A stretch of DNA of 38,549 nt from Chloroherpetonaceae bacterium (GTDB lineage Bacteria; Bacteroidota; Chlorobiia; Chlorobiales; Thermochlorobacteraceae): positions 112,102 to 150,650 of the forward strand of contig JANWWA010000006.1 of the NCBI GenBank assembly GCA_025056565.1. Direction: 5' to 3'. Position 1 is the first letter of the stretch. Each line of letters opens with the position of its first letter. The translations under genes were made by a program, and so were the position numbers. Below, piece by piece: positions 8,064 through 36,883 of this stretch. The notes below the pieces were generated by a model. That model was given only the letters and a program-made list of their open reading frames with translations. It searched no databases and was not told where the DNA came from.

Positions 8064-8777
8064 TTAAGCCTGCTGCGGTTGAACGCTTGGCGCACTGGGC
8101 GTACTCTGTGCATTCATCATTTTGATGAGTTCGACCAATTCTTGCTTTCCTGCATCGGTTAGCTCTACAACATTTTTTTCCAAGAATCGGAACAGTTCAG
8201 GATGCCGCTTGATATTGTTCGTGAAGTTGTTGTCGTAGATTCCCATCTCTTTGCAATCGCTGCGCACTTGCTTGAGGTTACCCAAGAAGCGTCCAGAAAT
8301 CAGTGCGCCAGCCAGACAGTTAAGCAGCACGGCGTTCAGTTGCGCTTTGGCTTTCTTTTCTTCGCCCACATTATTGTAGAGGCGCATGACACTTTCTTCG
8401 CCAATTGCGAAGAGTGAACGCACACTTACATCGGTAAGCGCTGCAGACTCTAAGAAAGCCCTCACATTTTCAATACTTGGCTTTCCCGTAATTTCAACTT
8501 TTCTTCCAGCTACGGCTGCGCTGCTCCCCTTTCTACGCCCTCTTTTTTTTCGCTTAATTTTCGGTGCAGCAATTTCGACTTCACTTTTTTTTGGTCGCCC
8601 TCTGCGCACGGCTGGCATCACTTCTGGCTTTGCCGCTGCTTCTTTTATCCCATTCATCATCTCGCTCTTTAGGACATCTTCTATCATCTTGAAGACAAAT
8701 GGGCGTTCGCTTTCGCTGCACTCTGCTCCGATGCGCTTAATATCTTCAATTAACGCCAGTAATCGTGTGTAGTTCAT
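8064..8777 (-). CDS. AT-hook-like basic protein of unknown function
   Basis: A protein of 237 residues that I do not recognise. It has an acidic/helical N-terminal segment (1-45) and a low-complexity basic middle (about 55-90). The middle carries two AT-hook-like patches, RRGRPKK near residue 58 and KRKKRGRRKG near residue 75. A predicted helical globular half (about 100-220) follows, containing the segment DNNFTNNIKRHPELF, and the tail is Pro/Ser/Gln-rich. AT-hooks bind the minor groove of AT-rich DNA, so a nucleoid-associated or regulatory role is an inference. A TTG two codons upstream is possible, but the ATG at 8777 is preferred. It ends 3 nt before lysA, so it is likely cotranscribed with it. 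Confidence 0.7.
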   Translation of the reverse strand: MNYTRLLALIEDIKRIGAECSESERPFVFKMIEDVLKSEMMNGIKEAAAKPEVMPAVRRGRPKKSEVEIAAPKIKRKKRGRRKGSSAAVAGRKVEITGKPSIENVRAFLESAALTDVSVRSLFAIGEESVMRLYNNVGEEKKAKAQLNAVLLNCLAGALISGRFLGNLKQVRSDCKEMGIYDNNFTNNIKRHPELFRFLEKNVVELTDAGKQELVELIKMMNAQSTPSAPSVQPQQA

Positions 8778-8891
8778 TGTCAAGGTGTCTTGTTTGTCCT
8801 TTCTAAGTTACTTGTTTCTCTCTGCTCTGTCGCTTATTTCGCGACGCGTGCAAAATAAACAAACTAAGCGAAAAAGAAAATTTTTTGTGCG

Positions 8892-9656
8892 TCAGTAACA
8901 CACTTGATTTCTTCCATTTTGTTTCGCTTGATAGAGCTTTTCATCGGCTGCGGAGAGCATCTTCTCGAAATTCGGGTAGTTTATGTCAGCACAGATACCA
9001 ATGCTCATTGTAGCCTTGAGGTCTGGATGAATGCGTTTCCAATCGTAGCTCTCGACACACTTGCGAATGTGTTCAGCAAGCTGTTTTGCTTCTTCCAGAC
9101 TGGTATCAGGAAAGACCGCCACAAACTCCTCACCGCCGTAACGGGCAACCACATCTCCTGCTCGCACTGAAGACTGCCAGATGCGGGCAACGGCTTTGAT
9201 CACCTCATCGCCAACTTGATGTGAAAAGCGGTCGTTAATTTTTTTGAAAAAGTCAATATCACCAATTGCAACGGCTAGCGCTCGATTGTGATGACGTGCT
9301 TCATCAAAAATTTTCTCCAGCGTCTGGTCTAAGTAGCGTCGATTATAGATACCACTTAGCCCATCGGTGATGGCTTGGTGCTCCAGCTTTGCGTTTGCTG
9401 CCGCCAGCTCTTCTTGGGTTTGAAGCAGTTTCTCTTGCGTGCTATCGCCAATGCGCGTAATTTTCATTGCTTGGCGCAAAAGATGACGATACTCGTCAGC
9501 CAATTTTTGATACTCCTCAAAGAGCCTTTCTCGCGAAATCTCTTGGTCTGCCAGTATGGCTTCGGAGTGTTTTAGCACATCCAGCTCCGCTTTGAAAATT
9601 TCCTCAATGTCTCGAGCTTGCTTAGACTTTTCAGGCATATCATTTAGCAGAAACAC
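8892..9656 (-). CDS. SiaD-like diguanylate cyclase (GGEEF)
   Basis: Makes cyclic di-GMP from two GTP. The 254 residues comprise an N-terminal helical/coiled-coil region (about 1-92) and a full GGDEF domain (about 93-254). The domain has DGLSGIYNRRYL (98-109), a metal-binding GDIDFFKKIND (132-142) and the active-site loop YGGEEF (173-178). RAGD at 165-168 stands five residues before GGEEF, which is the RxxD inhibitory-site spacing, so product feedback is possible. There is no membrane segment. It starts 2 nt after the SiaC-like gene stop and is last in a phosphatase-kinase-SiaC-cyclase operon, the order of Pseudomonas siaABCD, where SiaC activates the SiaD cyclase. The start is GTG at 9656 or ATG at 9638. 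Confidence 0.92.
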   Translation of the reverse strand: MFLLNDMPEKSKQARDIEEIFKAELDVLKHSEAILADQEISRERLFEEYQKLADEYRHLLRQAMKITRIGDSTQEKLLQTQEELAAANAKLEHQAITDGLSGIYNRRYLDQTLEKIFDEARHHNRALAVAIGDIDFFKKINDRFSHQVGDEVIKAVARIWQSSVRAGDVVARYGGEEFVAVFPDTSLEEAKQLAEHIRKCVESYDWKRIHPDLKATMSIGICADINYPNFEKMLSAADEKLYQAKQNGRNQVCY

Positions 9657-9658
9657 TG

Positions 9659-10033
9659 TTATTTGTATGCAATCACTTTGAAAGGTAGCGTTAGGTGCTC
9701 AGCAAATTCTTCCCCTGTCTCTTGCATCTGTTCATCGGCTTCGTTATGATACCACTTTACTTCTACCTTTTTACCCTCTTTGTATGCTTTTTCGAACATG
9801 CGTAAAATGTTCAAGATGCATTTCGAAGAGCTGGTGTTAAAGTATTGCAAGCGGAACGAGAGTGTTGCGCCCTGTCCTGATTTGAAATATGCATCAAGCC
9901 AATCCATAATTGGCTGATAGAATTCCAGAGCGGACTCTGGGTAAGACTGTCCAGAGATTTCCAGTTGCCCCGTTTCTGCGTTGAACATCACACTGGGTGT
10001 CGTCTTAGTGCCTGCAATCGTTAGGTGATTCAT
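9659..10033 (-). CDS. SiaC-family phospho-switch protein (DUF1987)
   Basis: A 124-residue protein matching the SiaC/DUF1987 family. The hallmark is the strand-helix segment FRLQYFNTSSSK (about 60-71), in which the Thr (Thr67 here) corresponds to the residue phosphorylated by SiaB in Pseudomonas. The N-terminus (a T-x-x-T-P-x-V-x-F strand, then GQLEISGQSYPE) and the PIMDWLDAYF helix are also typical. In the known pathway dephosphorylated SiaC binds and activates the cyclase SiaD, while phosphorylated SiaC is inactive. Its ATG overlaps the stop of the SiaB-like gene by 4 nt and its stop lies 2 nt before the GGDEF gene, so all three are tightly coupled. Confidence 0.9.
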   Translation of the reverse strand: MNHLTIAGTKTTPSVMFNAETGQLEISGQSYPESALEFYQPIMDWLDAYFKSGQGATLSFRLQYFNTSSSKCILNILRMFEKAYKEGKKVEVKWYHNEADEQMQETGEEFAEHLTLPFKVIAYK

Positions 10034-10590
10034 ACTGTTTTGTGAATGATGATGTTAAGAATGAAGAAGGCCAGTTTATCGCTGATGTTTGTAATCAAAA
10101 ACTCCGCTTTTTCATCGGATTTACGAATCATATCAATTAGCCCTAAGCCTGCACCTTTGCTACCTTTGGGCGGCTCTTGCATTCGGCGCTGCTGATGAAG
10201 TGCTTTCAGCTCTTCGCGCGACATTTCAACAAGCGATTGGCAATACCGCCTGATTTCATCGGCTTTCTCCCGCTCAATCGCATTACCTGAAGTGATTACA
10301 AAACTTTTTTCATTTTCGCGGATGACGATTATTCCTACGCCCACCTCCTTGCCATCGCCACGCACTTCTTTCTCTGCCGAGTAGTAAAGAATGTTTTGTG
10401 CCATCTCGACAAAGACGGAAAACATTTTCTGCACCTTGCTATCGTGCCCTTGCTGCAGCTTGACCAGCTCTCCAAGCTGAACAAGCAATTCCTGCGAAAA
10501 TGCACCTTTGAACGTCATTAGCACGCGTGCGCTGGAGATACGCTGGTAGAACTCGAAAATCTCCTGAATGCCAAACTGCGATGAATTCAT
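10030..10590 (-). CDS. SiaB-family protein kinase (GHKL fold)
   Basis: A 186-residue cytoplasmic protein of the SiaB family, unusual histidine-kinase-fold enzymes that phosphorylate SiaC on Thr. Visible features are an N-terminal EIFEFYQ helix, an FKGAFSQELLVQLG segment, an N-box-like VEMAQNILYYS (Glu62, Asn66) for ATP/Mg binding, and a glycine-rich lid KGSKGAGLGLIDM (142-154). There is no HisKA domain and no phospho-acceptor histidine, as expected for this anti-sigma-kinase-like group. The ATG at 10590 was preferred to a GTG three codons upstream. It lies 56 nt after the propeller phosphatase and overlaps the SiaC gene by 4 nt, giving a kinase/phosphatase pair acting on one small substrate. 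Confidence 0.88.
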   Translation of the reverse strand: MNSSQFGIQEIFEFYQRISSARVLMTFKGAFSQELLVQLGELVKLQQGHDSKVQKMFSVFVEMAQNILYYSAEKEVRGDGKEVGVGIIVIRENEKSFVITSGNAIEREKADEIRRYCQSLVEMSREELKALHQQRRMQEPPKGSKGAGLGLIDMIRKSDEKAEFLITNISDKLAFFILNIIIHKTV

Positions 10591-10642
10591 TTGCGGCACG
10601 AAGCGGTTTTGAGTTCAGAGAGCCTTTGAAGATATGGCTTTT

Positions 10643-13600
10643 TCAGACAATTCGGATTCCCACGACGGTAATGTCATCGCGCTGAGGCTCACTGCCTTGA
10701 TGACGCCGCAATTCTTCTTCTAAAATTTGGAGCTGCGTTTCAACAGGCTTACTGGCAATAAATTTCAGGAGTTCTTTCAAGCGCTTTGCTGCAAACACGC
10801 GCAACTGTGAATCGGGCTGGTCCGCATAGCCGTCGGTGGTCAGGTAAAGCATAGTGCCTCTTTCCAGTTCAAGTTGATGCTCTGTGTATCGGCGCTCTGC
10901 TTCTCGCTGCCAGCCACCAATTGAGGATTTATCCGGCTTAATTTCGTAAAGTTCGCCATGTCGCACATAGTAAAGTGGGCGACGCGCCCCCGCAAAACAA
11001 ACGATATACTTGTCAGGCTCTGCACTTGGCTGCATTACAACTATTCCCACATCCATTCCGTCTTGACTAGCCCCAATCTCATCTGTTTGGTTTAAGGCTC
11101 GGCGCACCAATCGATGCAATTCCTCCAAAATTCTTGCAGGGCTCAAGATGCGCCTTTCAATTACAATTTCGCCTAAGAGCGACTCCCCTATCGCTGACAT
11201 AAATGCGCCGGGCACTCCATGCCCTGTGCAATCAGCGACAGCAAAAATAATTTTTCCCCCTTCTTCATGAAACCAGTAGAAATCGCCCGAGACAATGTCA
11301 CGCGGTTTGTAAAGAATGAAATGCTCGGGTAAGTGTGCCTTCAGCCGCTCTCGGTCAGGCAAAATTGCCATCTGAATTGTCTTGGCATATTCAATGCTAG
11401 CCGTAATGTTTCGGTTTTTTTCCTCCAGCTCATCTTTTTGCCGCTGAATTTCCTCATTTTTTCGACGCAGCTCGAGCGTGGCTTCTCGCACTTTAGCTTC
11501 CAGCTCTCGATTCCGCGCTTCAATTGCTTTTATGCGTTGCTTGTAGCCACCATAACTTATTGCTCCTACACCCACTACCCCAAGAATGATGGTAAGTGAT
11601 TGAAACCACAATGTTTTCCAAAATGGCGGCACAATTTCCAGCTTAATGCTTGTACCCTGCTCATCCCAGACCCCATCGGGGCCTGCTGCTTTCACATAAA
11701 AGGTGTACTCGCCGGGCTCTAAGTTGGTGTAGGTGGCTTCTCGGCGCGCCCCTGCGTAGTTCCAGTTCTTGTCGAATCCCTCGAGCTTGTAAGCGTATTG
11801 ATTCCGATTCTGTTCGTAGTATGCCAGTGCTGAGTATTCAATTGCGAATTTGTTGTATTTGTAAGGCAGCACAATTTTCTCGCTTGCTGAAATAATGCTA
11901 TCGCGCTCTGTATCGCCAACGGTTTCTTTGACAGCTACACCTGTGATAATAATTGGTGGCTTGTAAGACTTCTCGCGGAATCCTTCAGGCGAAAAGCTGG
12001 TAATGACGCCAATTCCACCAAAGTAAAGGTAGCCGCTTGCGCCTTTGTGGCTAGCTGGCAGCTCAAATTGCTGCAGCTGTGTGTTTCTTAACCCAAACTG
12101 CACCCCACTGAGTGCATCATAATTGCGGAACGCTAAGGCTTTCGCAATTCCGTCTTCGCTCTCCGCAGCAGGTAAAACTTTGGTAATGCTTTTGCGCGTC
12201 TTAAGCCATAAGAACCCTTCACTATCCTCCAAGATGCTGTAGACAATGTCACTTGCTAAGCCATCACGCTCGCGGAAAGCCGTGAAAGTTTTTCCATCGT
12301 CTGCTGTCTTGCACAGTCCGCCGCCATCTGTGCCTACCCAAATTGTCCCTGTTGAATCTTGATGAATCGCCCAGACTACATTGGAAGATAAACTCTTTGA
12401 GTTCTGTGGTTCATTCAGCATCTGTGTAAAGGTTTTCCCCTCATCTGAGGTCTTGCACAGTCCACCGCCATTTGTGCCAATCCAAATTGTTCCATCACGG
12501 CTTTCGAAAATGGTGTTAATCACATTGCTGGACAGGCTTTGAGACTTGTTTGGATTACTTTTGAAGACCGTCATTTTCCCACCTCTGTTTGTGTCGAGCT
12601 TATTGGCTTTACTTAGCAGACACAAACCATTTTTCGTGCCTATCCAAAGATTCCCTTTTCGGTCTTCACAAAGTGCCGTAATTTCATTGCTGCAAAGTCC
12701 ACTTGGATTGTCGGGGTAATGAAAAAAGTATCGCAGGCTGCCTTTCTCTTTGGCTTGCAAGCATAAACCGCTGGTTGTGCCAATCCATAGCATTCCTGCT
12801 TTATCGCGCAGTAGTGCCGTAATGTAAGCCGTTTCGAGATTGATTGTTGCGGGTTCTTCTTTTTTCTTAGCTCGCTTGCCTCTTGGAGGTGTGCGTTTTT
12901 TAGGCTTTTTTTGCTCCTCTTCATCTTTGCCTACCTGCAAGCGCCGATACACCCTTGCTTCAGGCAAGTAACGATAAAGCCCACCATCGGTTGTGCCCAC
13001 CAGCAGCGTTTCATCAGGTTCTTCCCAAATTGCTGAGACTTTTCGCACCACCAGCTTTTCACCTCGCTTTGGATTGACTGCAATTGCCTCAAACTTAGCG
13101 CTGCCGCTTGGATTGCAGAGATAGACACCGCCGCTTACTGTGCCAATCCAGAGCAAGCCTGCTCGGTCGTGATAGAGCGCAAGAATCTGGTTGTCAGTCA
13201 AGCCTAAGGCAGGACCGTAATTTCGCCAATCCTTTTTGTCTCGTGTTTTTGCATTGAACAGCCAAAGCCCTCCATTTTCTGTGCCAATCCACACTCGGTT
13301 TGAATTCGGCTCGCAAACCACTGCTGGAAAAGTTTTAATACGCTCGCCTAAGGTCGGAAAGTAAGTAATAAATTTCTCTGTCTTCGGGTTAAAGTAGCAC
13401 AGCCCATTTGCAGTGCCAACCCACACATTACCGAACCGGTCAATTGCAATGGAGAGCACGGTATCGCTGCTGATTGAGTTTTTGTCGCTTGGGTCGTGCC
13501 TGTAAGTTTTAAATGACACACCACCGTTGTCAGATCGTGCCAGTCCGCCACGTGTGCCCACCCACATCGTGCCCAGACTGTCGAAGCAAAGTGCTGTAAT

Positions 13601-14146
13601 AGCATTGTCTGGCAATGATTCTGCATTGCGTTTTTCGTGCTGAAAGTTCAGAAAAGTCTCGCCGCCATCTATCGTCTTGCATAGACCGTTTTGTGTGCCA
13701 ATCCATACCGCACCCCAGCGGTCTTCGCCGATTGCTGTAATGTCTTCATTTACAAGGCTGTTCGAGCGACGTATATCTGGCAAAATTGTTTTGAATGACA
13801 GGCCGCCGTTCTCACTTTTGGCTAAGCCACTCGGCGTGCCGACCCAGAGCGTGCCGTTTCGGTCGCAATGCAAGGCTTGGATAATGTCGCTAGGAATGGT
13901 CTTGGGGTCTTGTGCATCGTAGCGATAGATGGTAAAGGTGTAGCCATCGAAGCGGTTCAGGCCGTCGTTTGTGCCAATCCAGATAAAACCTCGCTTATCT
14001 TGCGCTATGCAATTCACTCGGCTTTGCGATAGCCCACGTCCCGTGCTAAACTGCTCAAATTTGAGCTTGAGCTCTTGTGCCCACAGTGCAGTGCACCCTG
14101 CTTCCCAGAACACAATAAACAAGGTAAGGTGACAGACTTGTCTCAT
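10643..14146 (-). CDS. SiaA-like PP2C phosphatase fused to a two-component-regulator propeller sensor
   Basis: A 1167-residue membrane protein. A signal peptide (1-24, ending ALWAQ) precedes about thirteen Reg_prop repeats (25-655) of the form [LIV]W[IV]GT-x-x-GL, enough for two seven-bladed beta-propellers, interrupted by a Lys/Arg-rich insert at about 408-433. A Y_Y_Y domain (about 760-840, with YKLEGFDKNW), one TM helix (about 847-866), a coiled coil (868-920) and a cytoplasmic SpoIIE/PP2C phosphatase (about 930-1167) follow. Metal ligands are visible in SGDFYW (Asp955), ADCTGHG (Asp972), TTDGYADQ (Asp1105) and QRDDIT (Asp1157/1158). In Pseudomonas SiaA dephosphorylates SiaC. The start at 14146 is fixed by a purine-rich RBS and the signal peptide; an upstream in-frame start would spoil the signal sequence. 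It is first in the siaABCD-like operon. Confidence 0.93.
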   Translation of the reverse strand: MRQVCHLTLFIVFWEAGCTALWAQELKLKFEQFSTGRGLSQSRVNCIAQDKRGFIWIGTNDGLNRFDGYTFTIYRYDAQDPKTIPSDIIQALHCDRNGTLWVGTPSGLAKSENGGLSFKTILPDIRRSNSLVNEDITAIGEDRWGAVWIGTQNGLCKTIDGGETFLNFQHEKRNAESLPDNAITALCFDSLGTMWVGTRGGLARSDNGGVSFKTYRHDPSDKNSISSDTVLSIAIDRFGNVWVGTANGLCYFNPKTEKFITYFPTLGERIKTFPAVVCEPNSNRVWIGTENGGLWLFNAKTRDKKDWRNYGPALGLTDNQILALYHDRAGLLWIGTVSGGVYLCNPSGSAKFEAIAVNPKRGEKLVVRKVSAIWEEPDETLLVGTTDGGLYRYLPEARVYRRLQVGKDEEEQKKPKKRTPPRGKRAKKKEEPATINLETAYITALLRDKAGMLWIGTTSGLCLQAKEKGSLRYFFHYPDNPSGLCSNEITALCEDRKGNLWIGTKNGLCLLSKANKLDTNRGGKMTVFKSNPNKSQSLSSNVINTIFESRDGTIWIGTNGGGLCKTSDEGKTFTQMLNEPQNSKSLSSNVVWAIHQDSTGTIWVGTDGGGLCKTADDGKTFTAFRERDGLASDIVYSILEDSEGFLWLKTRKSITKVLPAAESEDGIAKALAFRNYDALSGVQFGLRNTQLQQFELPASHKGASGYLYFGGIGVITSFSPEGFREKSYKPPIIITGVAVKETVGDTERDSIISASEKIVLPYKYNKFAIEYSALAYYEQNRNQYAYKLEGFDKNWNYAGARREATYTNLEPGEYTFYVKAAGPDGVWDEQGTSIKLEIVPPFWKTLWFQSLTIILGVVGVGAISYGGYKQRIKAIEARNRELEAKVREATLELRRKNEEIQRQKDELEEKNRNITASIEYAKTIQMAILPDRERLKAHLPEHFILYKPRDIVSGDFYWFHEEGGKIIFAVADCTGHGVPGAFMSAIGESLLGEIVIERRILSPARILEELHRLVRRALNQTDEIGASQDGMDVGIVVMQPSAEPDKYIVCFAGARRPLYYVRHGELYEIKPDKSSIGGWQREAERRYTEHQLELERGTMLYLTTDGYADQPDSQLRVFAAKRLKELLKFIASKPVETQLQILEEELRRHQGSEPQRDDITVVGIRIV

Positions 14147-14159
14147 TTTGCCCCCTTTT
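14147..14159 (-). promoter_or_regulatory. Ribosome-binding site fixing the start of the propeller phosphatase
   Basis: On the minus strand AAAAGGGGG at 14151-14159 is followed after 4 nt (CAAA) by the ATG at 14146. This supports the internal start that puts the signal peptide at the N-terminus, rather than a start 20 codons upstream. Confidence 0.6.
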
Positions 14160-14505
14160 GTTTTGTAGAGTGAAGAGGTTACCTGAAGTGCAGCAGGAAA
14201 TGTCAATGCAGCAAAATTTGCAATTTTTTCTCAAATCCCAGTTTAAGAAAGTGTAAAGTGTGTACAACTGGACTGGGATACAGCTAAGCCTTGCCAATCA
14301 AAAAAATTGGTCAAAATTGGTGTGTCGCCCGAGAAACGATTTTCTGCGGTTTGGGGCTAAGGTGCTGAGCACTACTACTTTTTAAGACGCATTCTCCCGA
14401 GAGCTGTGGTATTAGCTCTCCGCATTGCTGCCCTTTTCTCAACCTTGAGAGAGGCGTGCACAATGTGCTTAGTCGCTTAGCTTTGCTTGTAGGTATGCAA
14501 TAAAA
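14147..14505. other. Intergenic region upstream of the SiaABCD-like operon
   Basis: No gene is visible. It must hold the promoter of the propeller-phosphatase operon, but I find no TAnnTTTG match. A perfect 7-bp inverted repeat, GAGAGCT at 14399-14405 and AGCTCTC at 14414-14420, lies downstream of lptB. It has no T-run on the minus side and is at best a weak terminator. A second short inverted repeat (TCTCAA/TTGAGA) follows near 14440. Confidence 0.35.
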
Positions 14506-33781: not shown

Positions 33782-36700
33782 CTACTTCATCAACACCATT
33801 TTCCGACTCTCCACATACTGCCCTCGCCCAGACACTGCTTCAAGACGATAAATGTATATCCCACCACTTAACCCACTTGCCACAAACCGCACCTCATAGC
33901 GCCCTGCTTCCCTACGCCCCTCTACTAATCTTGCCACCTCTCGCCCCAATAGGTCATACACCGCTAGCCGCACCTCCGCTGGCTCAGGCACTTCAAACGC
34001 AATCACCGTGCCCGGATTGAACGGATTCGGATAATTCTGCTCCAAGCGAAACTCCCGACTGACCCGCCGACCTAGCACCTCCACCCGCCACCCATACTCA
34101 TGCACCGTGCCGTCAAAATCCACCGACCGCAACTGATACACATACCGCTCCCCTTCCCGCACTTGCTCATCCAAGTAGCGATACGCCCGCCCCAGTGGCG
34201 TGGTGCCTGCACCTTGCAGCGCCGCTTGCTCTCGGTAGTGCGCCACCACCTCACCGTTGCGCAACAGAATGAAACCCGCATTATTCAGCTCCGATGCCGT
34301 CTTCCAGCGCAACTCCACACCCAAACCCGTCGCCTTGCCCACAAACTCCACTAACTCCACAGGCAACGGATTGTCCGATACATTTACCGTGCCCAGCGCT
34401 ACATAAAAGTTTGGGTTCGTCGTCGTGATGGTCTCCGTAAATGGGTCTGATGTAATCGGGTTCGGCACGCTTGAAACTGAGCCACCTCGGTTGAGCCACT
34501 GGAACGGAGTGCTGCCTTGAAGAATGGTTGCCACACGTGTATTCGGTGGATTCAAGGCACCATCGTCTGTATTGACTTGCACGGTTGCCTGCGTTACATC
34601 TAGGTTGGATGTTCCTGTGTTGGTGAATTGATAGTGGCGCAGCTGTGAGACGCCTTGCAACGGGGATTGGTAGGCACTGGACACAGTGCTACCGGGTTGT
34701 GGGATGAGTTGTCCCAACAGCGCAGCGCCACTGGCGGCGGCTTGGGCTTGCAGCGTTACGGGGCGATAGAGTGCGGCATCGCCGAGGGGGTAGAGATAGC
34801 TGCCTGAGACAGTGGAGATAGCTCGTTCGATGCGTCCGTTGATATGCCCTGAGGTGCGGACGACGGAGCTGGGTGCAGCGTTGGTCACTCGCACGGTATC
34901 AGTAGCGTCGACGGTTACAATGCCGCCTGAAAGCGTCAGGGTGTTGCCCACTACGGCGCTACCGCCTGAGAGGTTTTTATTCAAGCCGCTAATGACAAGG
35001 TTGTGATACTGCACATTGGGCGCAAAGGTGCTCGTGCCATTGCGCGGCGTGATGGCTTGCGCCGCAACATTGTTGCTATACTCTATCGTGCCGCTGGTAT
35101 TAATGCTTGTTAAGTTCCAGCCGCCAATTGGGCCTCCAGTTGCTGGTGCTTCTTCTCCGTAGAAAAGCGTTACGTCTGGTGGCGCTCCTCCGCTTGGATA
35201 GGTATCTTGCCCCGTTCCTAAACCGTGCACATCATTTACCAGAATCCTACCGTTTGGTCCCATACTGAGGAAGGTTACGCCAGAGCCGCCCCCAGTGCGT
35301 GTAGCAATGAGCGCTGCACCATCATCGCATATCAGTGTTCCATTCACAAACAGGGTGCGCTGATTCATCAGCCCCATTGCCGCACCTGATACTACTCTAA
35401 GAAAGGCGTTTGGGGCCACTTCCCAGTCAGAAATTGCATTTGTCTCAGAGCCTGTGCCTAACCACATTTCTTTTGGAGCATAGAAAATCGCTGGGTTGCT
35501 GATGCTTGTTCCCCCTGTGAAGCGTAGCAGCGGCATGCTCAGTGAGAAACCACTTCTTAATCCATTGTAGCGGCTGGTATTTTTGACCGTAAAATTGCCA
35601 CCAAAATTAAATTGAATTGTTCCCGTAGGCGGTGAGATCGGTAACGACAACGGACTAAATCCATTCGCGGTCAAAAGCAGCGTTGCGCCCGTTGTGCCAT
35701 TCCCCGTATTGAAATTACCGTTCACGTTCAGGATTGCACCTGCTGCCGCTGTGGCTTTTGGAGAAGTGAGCACGATTCCAATACCTTCATTAGGGTGTGT
35801 CAGGTCTGGCGCAAGAATATCTTGCTGCACAGTTAGAGTCGTAACTGCATTAGCTGCACTACTCAGCACCATACCTGTATTGAATCTCGCACGGTCTGGC
35901 TGCCCTCCTCCAGCGGGGATATACGCCGCTTCACTTGTCGACGTGCCGATATTAATGTTACCTGTAACGGTATGGGAGAGTGTGGCACCTGGGTTAGCGT
36001 TCCAGATTAGTATCCCACGAGATAAAAACACATCACCTTGAATATTCAAGGGAGTGAATACACGCGTTGCGTTATCCTCCTTGTAGTCACCTGCAAATGC
36101 AAGCACCCCACGTGCCTGGCCGCCAAGATTTTGAATTGCTAATCCTCGCATAGTAATAGCTGGCGCGCCTGCCTGACCAATAATCTGCTCACGACTTGTT
36201 TGTTCTGGGTCATCAAATACGAAGCTCGGTGGTGGGGTAGGGTTGAATGAAGCATTAAGACCTGGCGGCGGTGTGGGCGAGGAATTGACCATTAACAGGT
36301 TGTTCAAATCATATGAACCGCTGCCGATAAGCTGCTGCTGCCCTTCATCGTTTCGAGTGAACACCACGTTGCAGATGTTGAACTCAGTAGGGTTATTGAA
36401 TTGGTTAAAACCCACCACTCCATTGTTGTTAAAGACAGTTGATGTGTTTGGCGGGTCAGTTGGCAAAGGCGAAAGTTGCAAGGTGTGTGTCGTAGTGGTG
36501 CTTAGTGGCAGTATCACCCCAAATTGCCCACCCGAATTCACAGTCACATTCCTTACAATAACTGTGCGTCCTGTCCCTGTGGCATCAAACTGCAATGTCC
36601 CACCACTATTGACCGTAATAGACTGTAAGGGAAACGGTGGCGTCACGTTGATTGTAACCGTGTGCCCAGCATTGATTGTAACGACCGCATTGTTACTTAG

Positions 36701-36883
36701 CTCTCCTGGGTATGTTCCCGTCGCAGTAGTATTCCAAATGCTTGGGTCACTCCAGTTTCCTGAACTGATGCTGGTGTAGGTGGTTTGTGCCCAAGCGGTG
36801 GAGAGGCTTAGTGCCCAGCAGGCAAGCCACACAGCGGCCAGTCGTCGCACGCTTTGCATCACTTGTTGTATCGCTTTAGTCAT
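33782..36883 (-). CDS. Large secreted protein with T9SS type A sorting domain
   Basis: A 1033-residue surface or extracellular protein. A signal peptide (about 1-33, ending AWAQ) starts it. A long, Gly/Ser/Thr/Asn-rich beta-strand region (about 34-830) opens with a NWSDPSIWN segment. Near residue 838 begins the conserved NPLPVELVEF linker of such proteins, and residues 945-1033 form the type IX secretion C-terminal sorting domain: QNYPNPFNPGT, VYDLLGREVARL, YIYRLEA and a terminal KMVLMK. The sorting domain is cleaved after export in known systems. The cargo function (adhesin, matrix protein or enzyme) is not recognisable. The last 590 bases have a different codon flavour from the rest. Confidence 0.93.
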   Translation of the reverse strand: MTKAIQQVMQSVRRLAAVWLACWALSLSTAWAQTTYTSISSGNWSDPSIWNTTATGTYPGELSNNAVVTINAGHTVTINVTPPFPLQSITVNSGGTLQFDATGTGRTVIVRNVTVNSGGQFGVILPLSTTTTHTLQLSPLPTDPPNTSTVFNNNGVVGFNQFNNPTEFNICNVVFTRNDEGQQQLIGSGSYDLNNLLMVNSSPTPPPGLNASFNPTPPPSFVFDDPEQTSREQIIGQAGAPAITMRGLAIQNLGGQARGVLAFAGDYKEDNATRVFTPLNIQGDVFLSRGILIWNANPGATLSHTVTGNINIGTSTSEAAYIPAGGGQPDRARFNTGMVLSSAANAVTTLTVQQDILAPDLTHPNEGIGIVLTSPKATAAAGAILNVNGNFNTGNGTTGATLLLTANGFSPLSLPISPPTGTIQFNFGGNFTVKNTSRYNGLRSGFSLSMPLLRFTGGTSISNPAIFYAPKEMWLGTGSETNAISDWEVAPNAFLRVVSGAAMGLMNQRTLFVNGTLICDDGAALIATRTGGGSGVTFLSMGPNGRILVNDVHGLGTGQDTYPSGGAPPDVTLFYGEEAPATGGPIGGWNLTSINTSGTIEYSNNVAAQAITPRNGTSTFAPNVQYHNLVISGLNKNLSGGSAVVGNTLTLSGGIVTVDATDTVRVTNAAPSSVVRTSGHINGRIERAISTVSGSYLYPLGDAALYRPVTLQAQAAASGAALLGQLIPQPGSTVSSAYQSPLQGVSQLRHYQFTNTGTSNLDVTQATVQVNTDDGALNPPNTRVATILQGSTPFQWLNRGGSVSSVPNPITSDPFTETITTTNPNFYVALGTVNVSDNPLPVELVEFVGKATGLGVELRWKTASELNNAGFILLRNGEVVAHYREQAALQGAGTTPLGRAYRYLDEQVREGERYVYQLRSVDFDGTVHEYGWRVEVLGRRVSREFRLEQNYPNPFNPGTVIAFEVPEPAEVRLAVYDLLGREVARLVEGRREAGRYEVRFVASGLSGGIYIYRLEAVSGRGQYVESRKMVLMK

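Follow-up and report, generated by a model that had tools for sequence, protein, structure and literature searches.

A four-gene operon on the minus strand of the 38,549-nt stretch of DNA analyzed here (the window) raises the question of whether the SiaC protein of a SiaABCD-type switch serves only the cyclase encoded beside it. The SiaABCD system was described in Pseudomonas as a switch for one cyclase (PMC7647112, PMC8457831), and the second of these papers went no further than to suggest that members of DUF1987 act on the proteins encoded next to them. The host is a hot-spring relative of the green bacteria (Chlorobiota) and belongs to the same genus as Ca. Thermochlorobacter aerophilum. 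Taken as a whole, the locus is best explained as a SiaABCD-type Ser/Thr partner switch with a propeller front end and a portable receiver stalk that would control varied outputs, a reading that we consider quite probable.

All four ORFs were present at the positions given by the initial annotation, and the gene order (PP2C phosphatase, GHKL kinase, SiaC, GGEEF cyclase) and junctions are as it described: SiaB and SiaC overlap by 4 nt, 2 nt separate SiaC from the GGDEF gene, and 43 nt lie between SiaA and SiaB. Family profiles and PDB matches agree on the four-part identity. Genomic comparison reveals that the operon, including the propeller phosphatase, is kept in four genomes of two genera (the host, G000; T. 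aerophilum, G001; G002; G003), which puts it far beyond chance and bears out the linkage anticipated for relatives; the reading frames of the G002 copy are broken in that assembly. G001 and G002 share both flanks with the host; G003 shares the LptB side. A second family of the phylum likewise has the propeller-PP2C/SiaB/SiaC set (L041, L044, L048), and in a third genus of the host's family (G004, G006, G007) SiaB-SiaC is followed by a histidine kinase, with no GGDEF gene. Judged from sequence, the operon is a SiaABCD-type variant with a new front end, an assignment made although none of the four proteins attains its NCBIfam equivalog cut-off (SiaA, NF038263, 222 bits against 700, with the C-terminal 296 residues alone matching; SiaB, NF038264, 95.8 against 225; SiaC, NF038265, 118.8 against 150; SiaD, NF038266, 177 bits against 290). 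Immediately downstream, a 239-aa K/R-rich protein without a family (8064-8783, minus strand) is kept in G001 and G002.

The new front end comprises the following features:

10643-14146, minus strand: SiaA-like sensor phosphatase, 1167 aa (Pfam Reg_prop/Y_Y_Y/SpoIIE, PDB, hydropathy, blades)
12167-14017, minus strand: propeller region with 13 blade signatures, 14 being expected by homology (Pfam, PDB 4a2l, blade pattern)
11633-11821, minus strand: Y_Y_Y domain (Pfam, 69.7 bits)
11555-11614, minus strand: single transmembrane helix, residues about 845-864 (hydropathy)
10649-11260, minus strand: PP2C/SpoIIE phosphatase domain (alignment to 6k4e)

The ORF itself spans 10643-14206, and the most likely start is the ATG at 14146, preceded by an AAGGGGG-type ribosome site. 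The protein is composed of a signal peptide, a two-part beta-propeller (Reg_prop, 203 bits), Y_Y_Y, one transmembrane helix, a coiled coil and a PP2C domain (SpoIIE, 76 bits). Thirteen blade signatures of the form D..G..W[IV]GT were counted, in keeping with the roughly thirteen repeats plus Y_Y_Y noted initially; their spacing of 43-54 aa (one of 73 aa) fits double-propeller sensors such as 4a2l, the best PDB match of the ectodomain (E 1e-94). At the sequence level, the protein thus has the double propeller, Y_Y_Y and one transmembrane helix of propeller/Y_Y_Y sensors, and the exchange of the periplasmic input for the Pseudomonas sensor had been read correctly. In the phosphatase domain, the metal-site Asp and Gly motifs are intact in the alignment to 6k4e (SGDFYW, ADCTGHG, TTDGY, QRDDIT), and the nearest solved PP2C is SiaA-PP2C itself (6k4e, E 2e-41). 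The predicted structure of the whole protein had a mean pLDDT of 48 and was discarded. Structurally, ectodomain architecture and topology are shared with the Bacteroides-type propeller/Y_Y_Y hybrid sensors (4a2l/4a2m, 3v9f, 3ott), whose output is a histidine kinase with a regulator, whereas that of the window protein is PP2C. It also differs from those sensors in its surroundings, where polysaccharide-use genes were looked for and not found: the window ORFs scanned include neither a CAZyme gene nor SusC or SusD. Glycan sensing, offered earlier as a possible role of the propeller, was considered and gains no support from the genes in the window.

The kinase and its substrate follow:

10030-10599, minus strand: SiaB family kinase, GHKL, 186 aa from the ATG at 10590 (NCBIfam NF038262, PDB 6kko chain A)
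9659-10033, minus strand: SiaC phospho-switch protein, 124 aa (PF09345, NCBIfam, PDB alignment)
9833-9835, minus strand: codon of T67, the predicted phospho-acceptor in YFNTSSSK (alignment; PMC7647112, PMC8457831)

Both proteins lie above the cut-offs of the families to which they had been attributed. SiaB scores 165.4 bits against NF038262 (SiaB_fam_kinase, cut-off 85), matches 6kko chain A (E 1e-20) and keeps the GHKL ExxQN motif. SiaC scores 155 bits against PF09345 (cut-off 24.5); its phospho-site NTSS opens helix 2, the alignment pairs T67 with Pseudomonas T68, and the nearest solved SiaC sequences are 6kko and 7e6g. By profile matches, the host genome contains a single SiaC, a single SiaB, eight GGDEF and five class III cyclase proteins, and no PilZ match was found in it despite the eight GGDEF and two EAL matches. 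The pathway had been described as known mainly from Proteobacteria, a statement that the genome scan corrects: from more than 500 SiaC sites, the 80 examined are mostly from Bacteroidota and usually adjoin SiaB, and other SiaC loci are found in Acidobacteriota and Spirochaetota. SiaB/SiaC is common in Bacteroidota. Along the SiaC tree the output class changes repeatedly; the tree gives no support to the idea that SiaC was gained horizontally from Acidobacteria. At one locus, a response-regulator receiver, PP2C and SiaB are naturally fused into a single protein encoded upstream of SiaC (L039:7718-9439).

The last gene encodes the cyclase and, at its N-terminus, the putative receiver:

8892-9656, minus strand: SiaD-like diguanylate cyclase, 254 aa, alternative ATG at 9638 (Pfam, NCBIfam, PDB)
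9387-9626, minus strand: putative SiaC-receiver stalk, coiled-coil helices, residues 11-90 (alignments A1/A4; the stalk profile reaches SiaD 7e6g first)
9435-9455, minus strand: predicted docking motif RIGDSTQ, residues 68-74, equivalent to SiaD R80-Q86 (stalk profile against PDB, 39-stalk alignment)
9153-9164, minus strand: RxxD product-inhibition site, RAGD (alignments A6/A8)
9123-9137, minus strand: GGEEF active site (ORF translation, alignment)

The GGDEF domain scores 151 bits in Pfam, and the protein matches SiaD, yet other cyclases in the PDB outscore SiaD on the GGDEF domain alone. The initial annotation was right about the GGEEF gene but overlooked both the receiver stalk and the other stalk enzyme that the host encodes away from the operon. 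The stalk belongs to no Pfam family, and as a single query it has no match in the PDB; the alignment profile alone gives one. The best match of this profile (E 6e-4, weak) is to SiaD from 7e6g, the crystal of SiaC with SiaD, with KITRIGDSTQ placed on KVARISDRYQ, exactly at the SiaC-binding motif, so that a GGEEF cyclase and a stalk motif in register with SiaD R80-Q86 are found in one protein. The motif follows the pattern R-I-S/G-D-x-x-Q. Across 39 stalks, D71 and Q74 are the sole invariant residues and position 70 is S, G or A; these correspond to SiaD D83, Q86 and S82. In the crystal, SiaC T68 bonds SiaD S82 and Q86, and neighboring SiaC residues touch Q86 and D83 (PMC8457831). The window motif has Gly at the Ser82 position. 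The profile matches SiaD twice, and the window stalk carries one motif in place of two in tandem. A structure model of the cyclase is helical at the N-terminus and uncertain around the motif, and its fold search ranks SiaD 17; it was therefore given no weight. For the genome scan, alignment A2 was too diverse and the subset A3 was used instead.

Joining the observed parts, motifs, co-occurrence, register and linkage to the phosphorylation logic and docking of the Pseudomonas system by analogy, we infer the following sequence of events. The periplasmic propeller/Y_Y_Y module would sense a cue, and the signal would pass through the single transmembrane helix and coiled coil to set the activity of the cytoplasmic PP2C. 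This phosphatase and the kinase SiaB would together set the phosphorylation of SiaC T67. Unphosphorylated SiaC would grip the GGEEF protein by its N-terminal stalk, at the single RIGDSTQ site, and docking, if it occurs in this organism as in Pseudomonas, would order the coiled coil and switch on c-di-GMP synthesis; a phosphate on T67 would prevent it. Other proteins may be governed likewise, the stalk acting as a portable receiver in fixed heptad register on histidine kinases, class III cyclases, PP2C phosphatases, Hanks kinases and small membrane or stand-alone proteins.

The distribution of the stalk makes such a portable SiaC receiver well supported, as far as sequence comparison goes. The same stalk is found on GGDEF, HisKA/HATPase, Guanylate_cyc, SpoIIE and Pkinase proteins, and on small membrane and stand-alone proteins. 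The N-terminal 80-90 residues of the window GGDEF protein and of the histidine kinases of G004, G006 and G007 are alike. Within the phylum, stalk-like N-termini adjoining SiaC occur on class III cyclases (L047, L051, L060), PP2C phosphatases (L043, L045), histidine kinases (L055, L058, L059) and one small membrane protein. Four stand-alone stalk proteins of 77-99 aa were also identified (L039:9826-10083, L040:9502-9801, L053:9705-9962, L056:9627-9860). Stalk-only proteins gave zero Pfam matches in the scan, and in longer stalk proteins the Pfam matches cover the output, GAF or further parts downstream. The SiaC beside the four stand-alone proteins reads NSSSIK, so that its phospho-site residue is Ser; next comes a protein of about 980-1270 aa, which is alike in three of the loci. 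A further family of 160-199 aa combines the stalk with hydrophobic TM-like helices (L109, L114, L115, L149, L160, L176, L225, L226) and has no Pfam name in the members scanned. In Acidobacteriota, Hanks-type Ser/Thr kinases with the stalk adjoin SiaC (L221, L222, L241, L243, L244, L246); their linker lengths are 38 and 45, a difference of 7 residues.

The host genome carries exactly two stalk enzymes, one GGDEF protein and one class III nucleotidyl cyclase, against its single SiaC. The second enzyme (G000:C3:80887-81834, equivalent to L092:6887-7834) is encoded on a contig other than that of the operon, divergently from an adjoining PtsI-like gene identified by eye. Its catalytic motifs align with mammalian adenylate cyclases, including the lysine of EKIKTIG and the aspartate of YDLWGDTVN, which we take to be typical of ATP use. 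The single SiaC probably also drives this adenylate-cyclase-like enzyme, which could place c-di-GMP and cAMP under the joint control of one SiaC. A stalk cyclase is also present in G002 and G003; none was found in T. aerophilum (G001), so not every member of the genus has this second output.

These data bear on the most serious alternative, that the locus is an ordinary SiaABCD orthologue in which the stalk is SiaD's own N-terminus, SiaC serves the operon cyclase alone, and other stalks are old paralogues with private partners. Most stalk proteins do adjoin their own SiaC, and multiple SiaC copies go with multiple stalk proteins in the same genome, as this account would predict. Against it, G000, G002 and G003 each combine one SiaC with two stalk enzymes, and two stalk enzymes share one-SiaC operons in Chloracidobacterium (L104, L245, L247) and Azospirillum (L182). 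The Azospirillum operon has the stalk on a histidine kinase and a cyclase, found by profiles trained without either, and Chloracidobacterium has the same pair. We therefore regard the orthologue account as unlikely, and somewhat favor the broader claim: that the stalk is a receiver of general use, absent from the catalogues, through which SiaA/B/C, a widely used Ser/Thr phospho-switch, would act as front end for at least six kinds of output. One SiaC could then drive several of these simultaneously, in this host c-di-GMP together with, probably, cAMP in a two-messenger switch.

That the propeller protein acts mainly in another pathway, for example by dephosphorylating other STAS-like proteins, and stands before siaBC incidentally, would be surprising: such sensors are versatile and the propeller-PP2C/SiaB/SiaC set of family f48 has no adjoining stalk gene, but the operon is tight, the nearest solved PP2C is SiaA, and the arrangement is kept in two families.

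The portable-receiver reading also bears on the spacing between motif and output, measured in residues from the Q of the motif to a landmark of the catalytic domain in 42 measurable proteins, some of them near-copies. The distances are 17, 24, 31, 38, 45 and 52 residues for GGDEF proteins, 18, 32, 39 and 46 for histidine kinases, and 65, 79 and 86 for class III cyclases. Within each output class all distances are equal modulo 7, with zero exceptions among the measurable proteins, and two beta-proteobacterial cyclases and Pseudomonas SiaD (17) fit as well; counting distinct lengths only, the chance of this pattern is 7^-10. The motif is therefore rigidly coupled to the output. Heptad quantization is a general property of coiled-coil sensors and linkers, so the modulo-7 lock alone is no proof of SiaC binding.

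Co-occurrence supplies a second line of evidence. In Acidobacteriota, stalk and SiaC are found in the same 9 of 247 genomes, with a Fisher p of 1e-16 that is only nominal because three of the stalks in profile A4 come from that phylum, whose genomes are related to one another. In the Bacteroidota-phylum sample, SiaC is present in 15 of 16 strong-stalk genomes, the exception (G010, L095) having a stalk cyclase with neither SiaC nor SiaB found; related genomes in these counts are not independent, and the association partly reflects training-set choice, since the first stalk profile was built from SiaC-adjacent genes. Conversely, five SiaC-positive genomes of the phylum sample have no detectable stalk, and in a further check of 19 genomes, 11 combine SiaC with no detectable stalk. 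In Marinifilum, Labilibaculum, Crocinitomix and others, SiaB-SiaC pairs occur with no stalk found anywhere in the genome, so another partner must exist in this large branch of Bacteroidota. Pairs alone, with no adjoining PP2C, are seen there at L148, L161, L167, L171 and similar loci.

Signaling linkers such as S-helices are, like the stalk, heptad-quantized coiled coils ahead of catalytic domains, and this likeness favors the view that the stalk is a generic linker arisen by convergence and resembles the SiaC site only incidentally; that view is the least probable of all, since hundreds of genomes without SiaC yield no such linker to the profile (G010 being the one high-score exception), the best of 15,600 shuffled stalks reaches only E 0.006, and the invariant residues are SiaC contacts, not merely coiled-coil core positions. 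Unlike S-helices, the stalk is an N-terminal input module, has an invariant D..Q motif and co-occurs with SiaC.

Compared with SiaABCD of Pseudomonas aeruginosa, the window operon has the same four functions in the same order and the same SiaC phospho-site (PMC7647112, PMC8457831), together with the stalk docking motif and its modulo-7 spacing to GGDEF. It differs in its one-TM propeller/Y_Y_Y sensor (Pseudomonas has a two-TM HAMP sensor), in its one docking motif with Gly for Ser82 (Pseudomonas SiaD has two motifs) and in the second stalk enzyme elsewhere in the host genome. The STAS partner switches HsbA-HsbD and BgrV-BgrR, as they are cited in PMC8457831, likewise place a diguanylate cyclase under a phospho-switched STAS-fold protein, whereas SiaC (DUF1987) is a separate family whose target would be a recognizable stalk common to many output classes. 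No paper describing a portable SiaC-receiver stalk was found in a literature search. A recognizable receiver motif would predict the target of each SiaC in many genomes, including targets encoded at a distance. If the reading is true, Ser/Thr partner switching would be joined to two-component, c-di-GMP, cAMP and Hanks-kinase signaling by one mechanical principle, with the stalk as a candidate phospho-gated coiled coil of known register. Elsewhere in the window, a 1033-aa ORF with no Pfam match (33782-36883, minus strand) has partial relatives in the vicinity of SiaC in G007 and G004, at 45-54% across short stretches.
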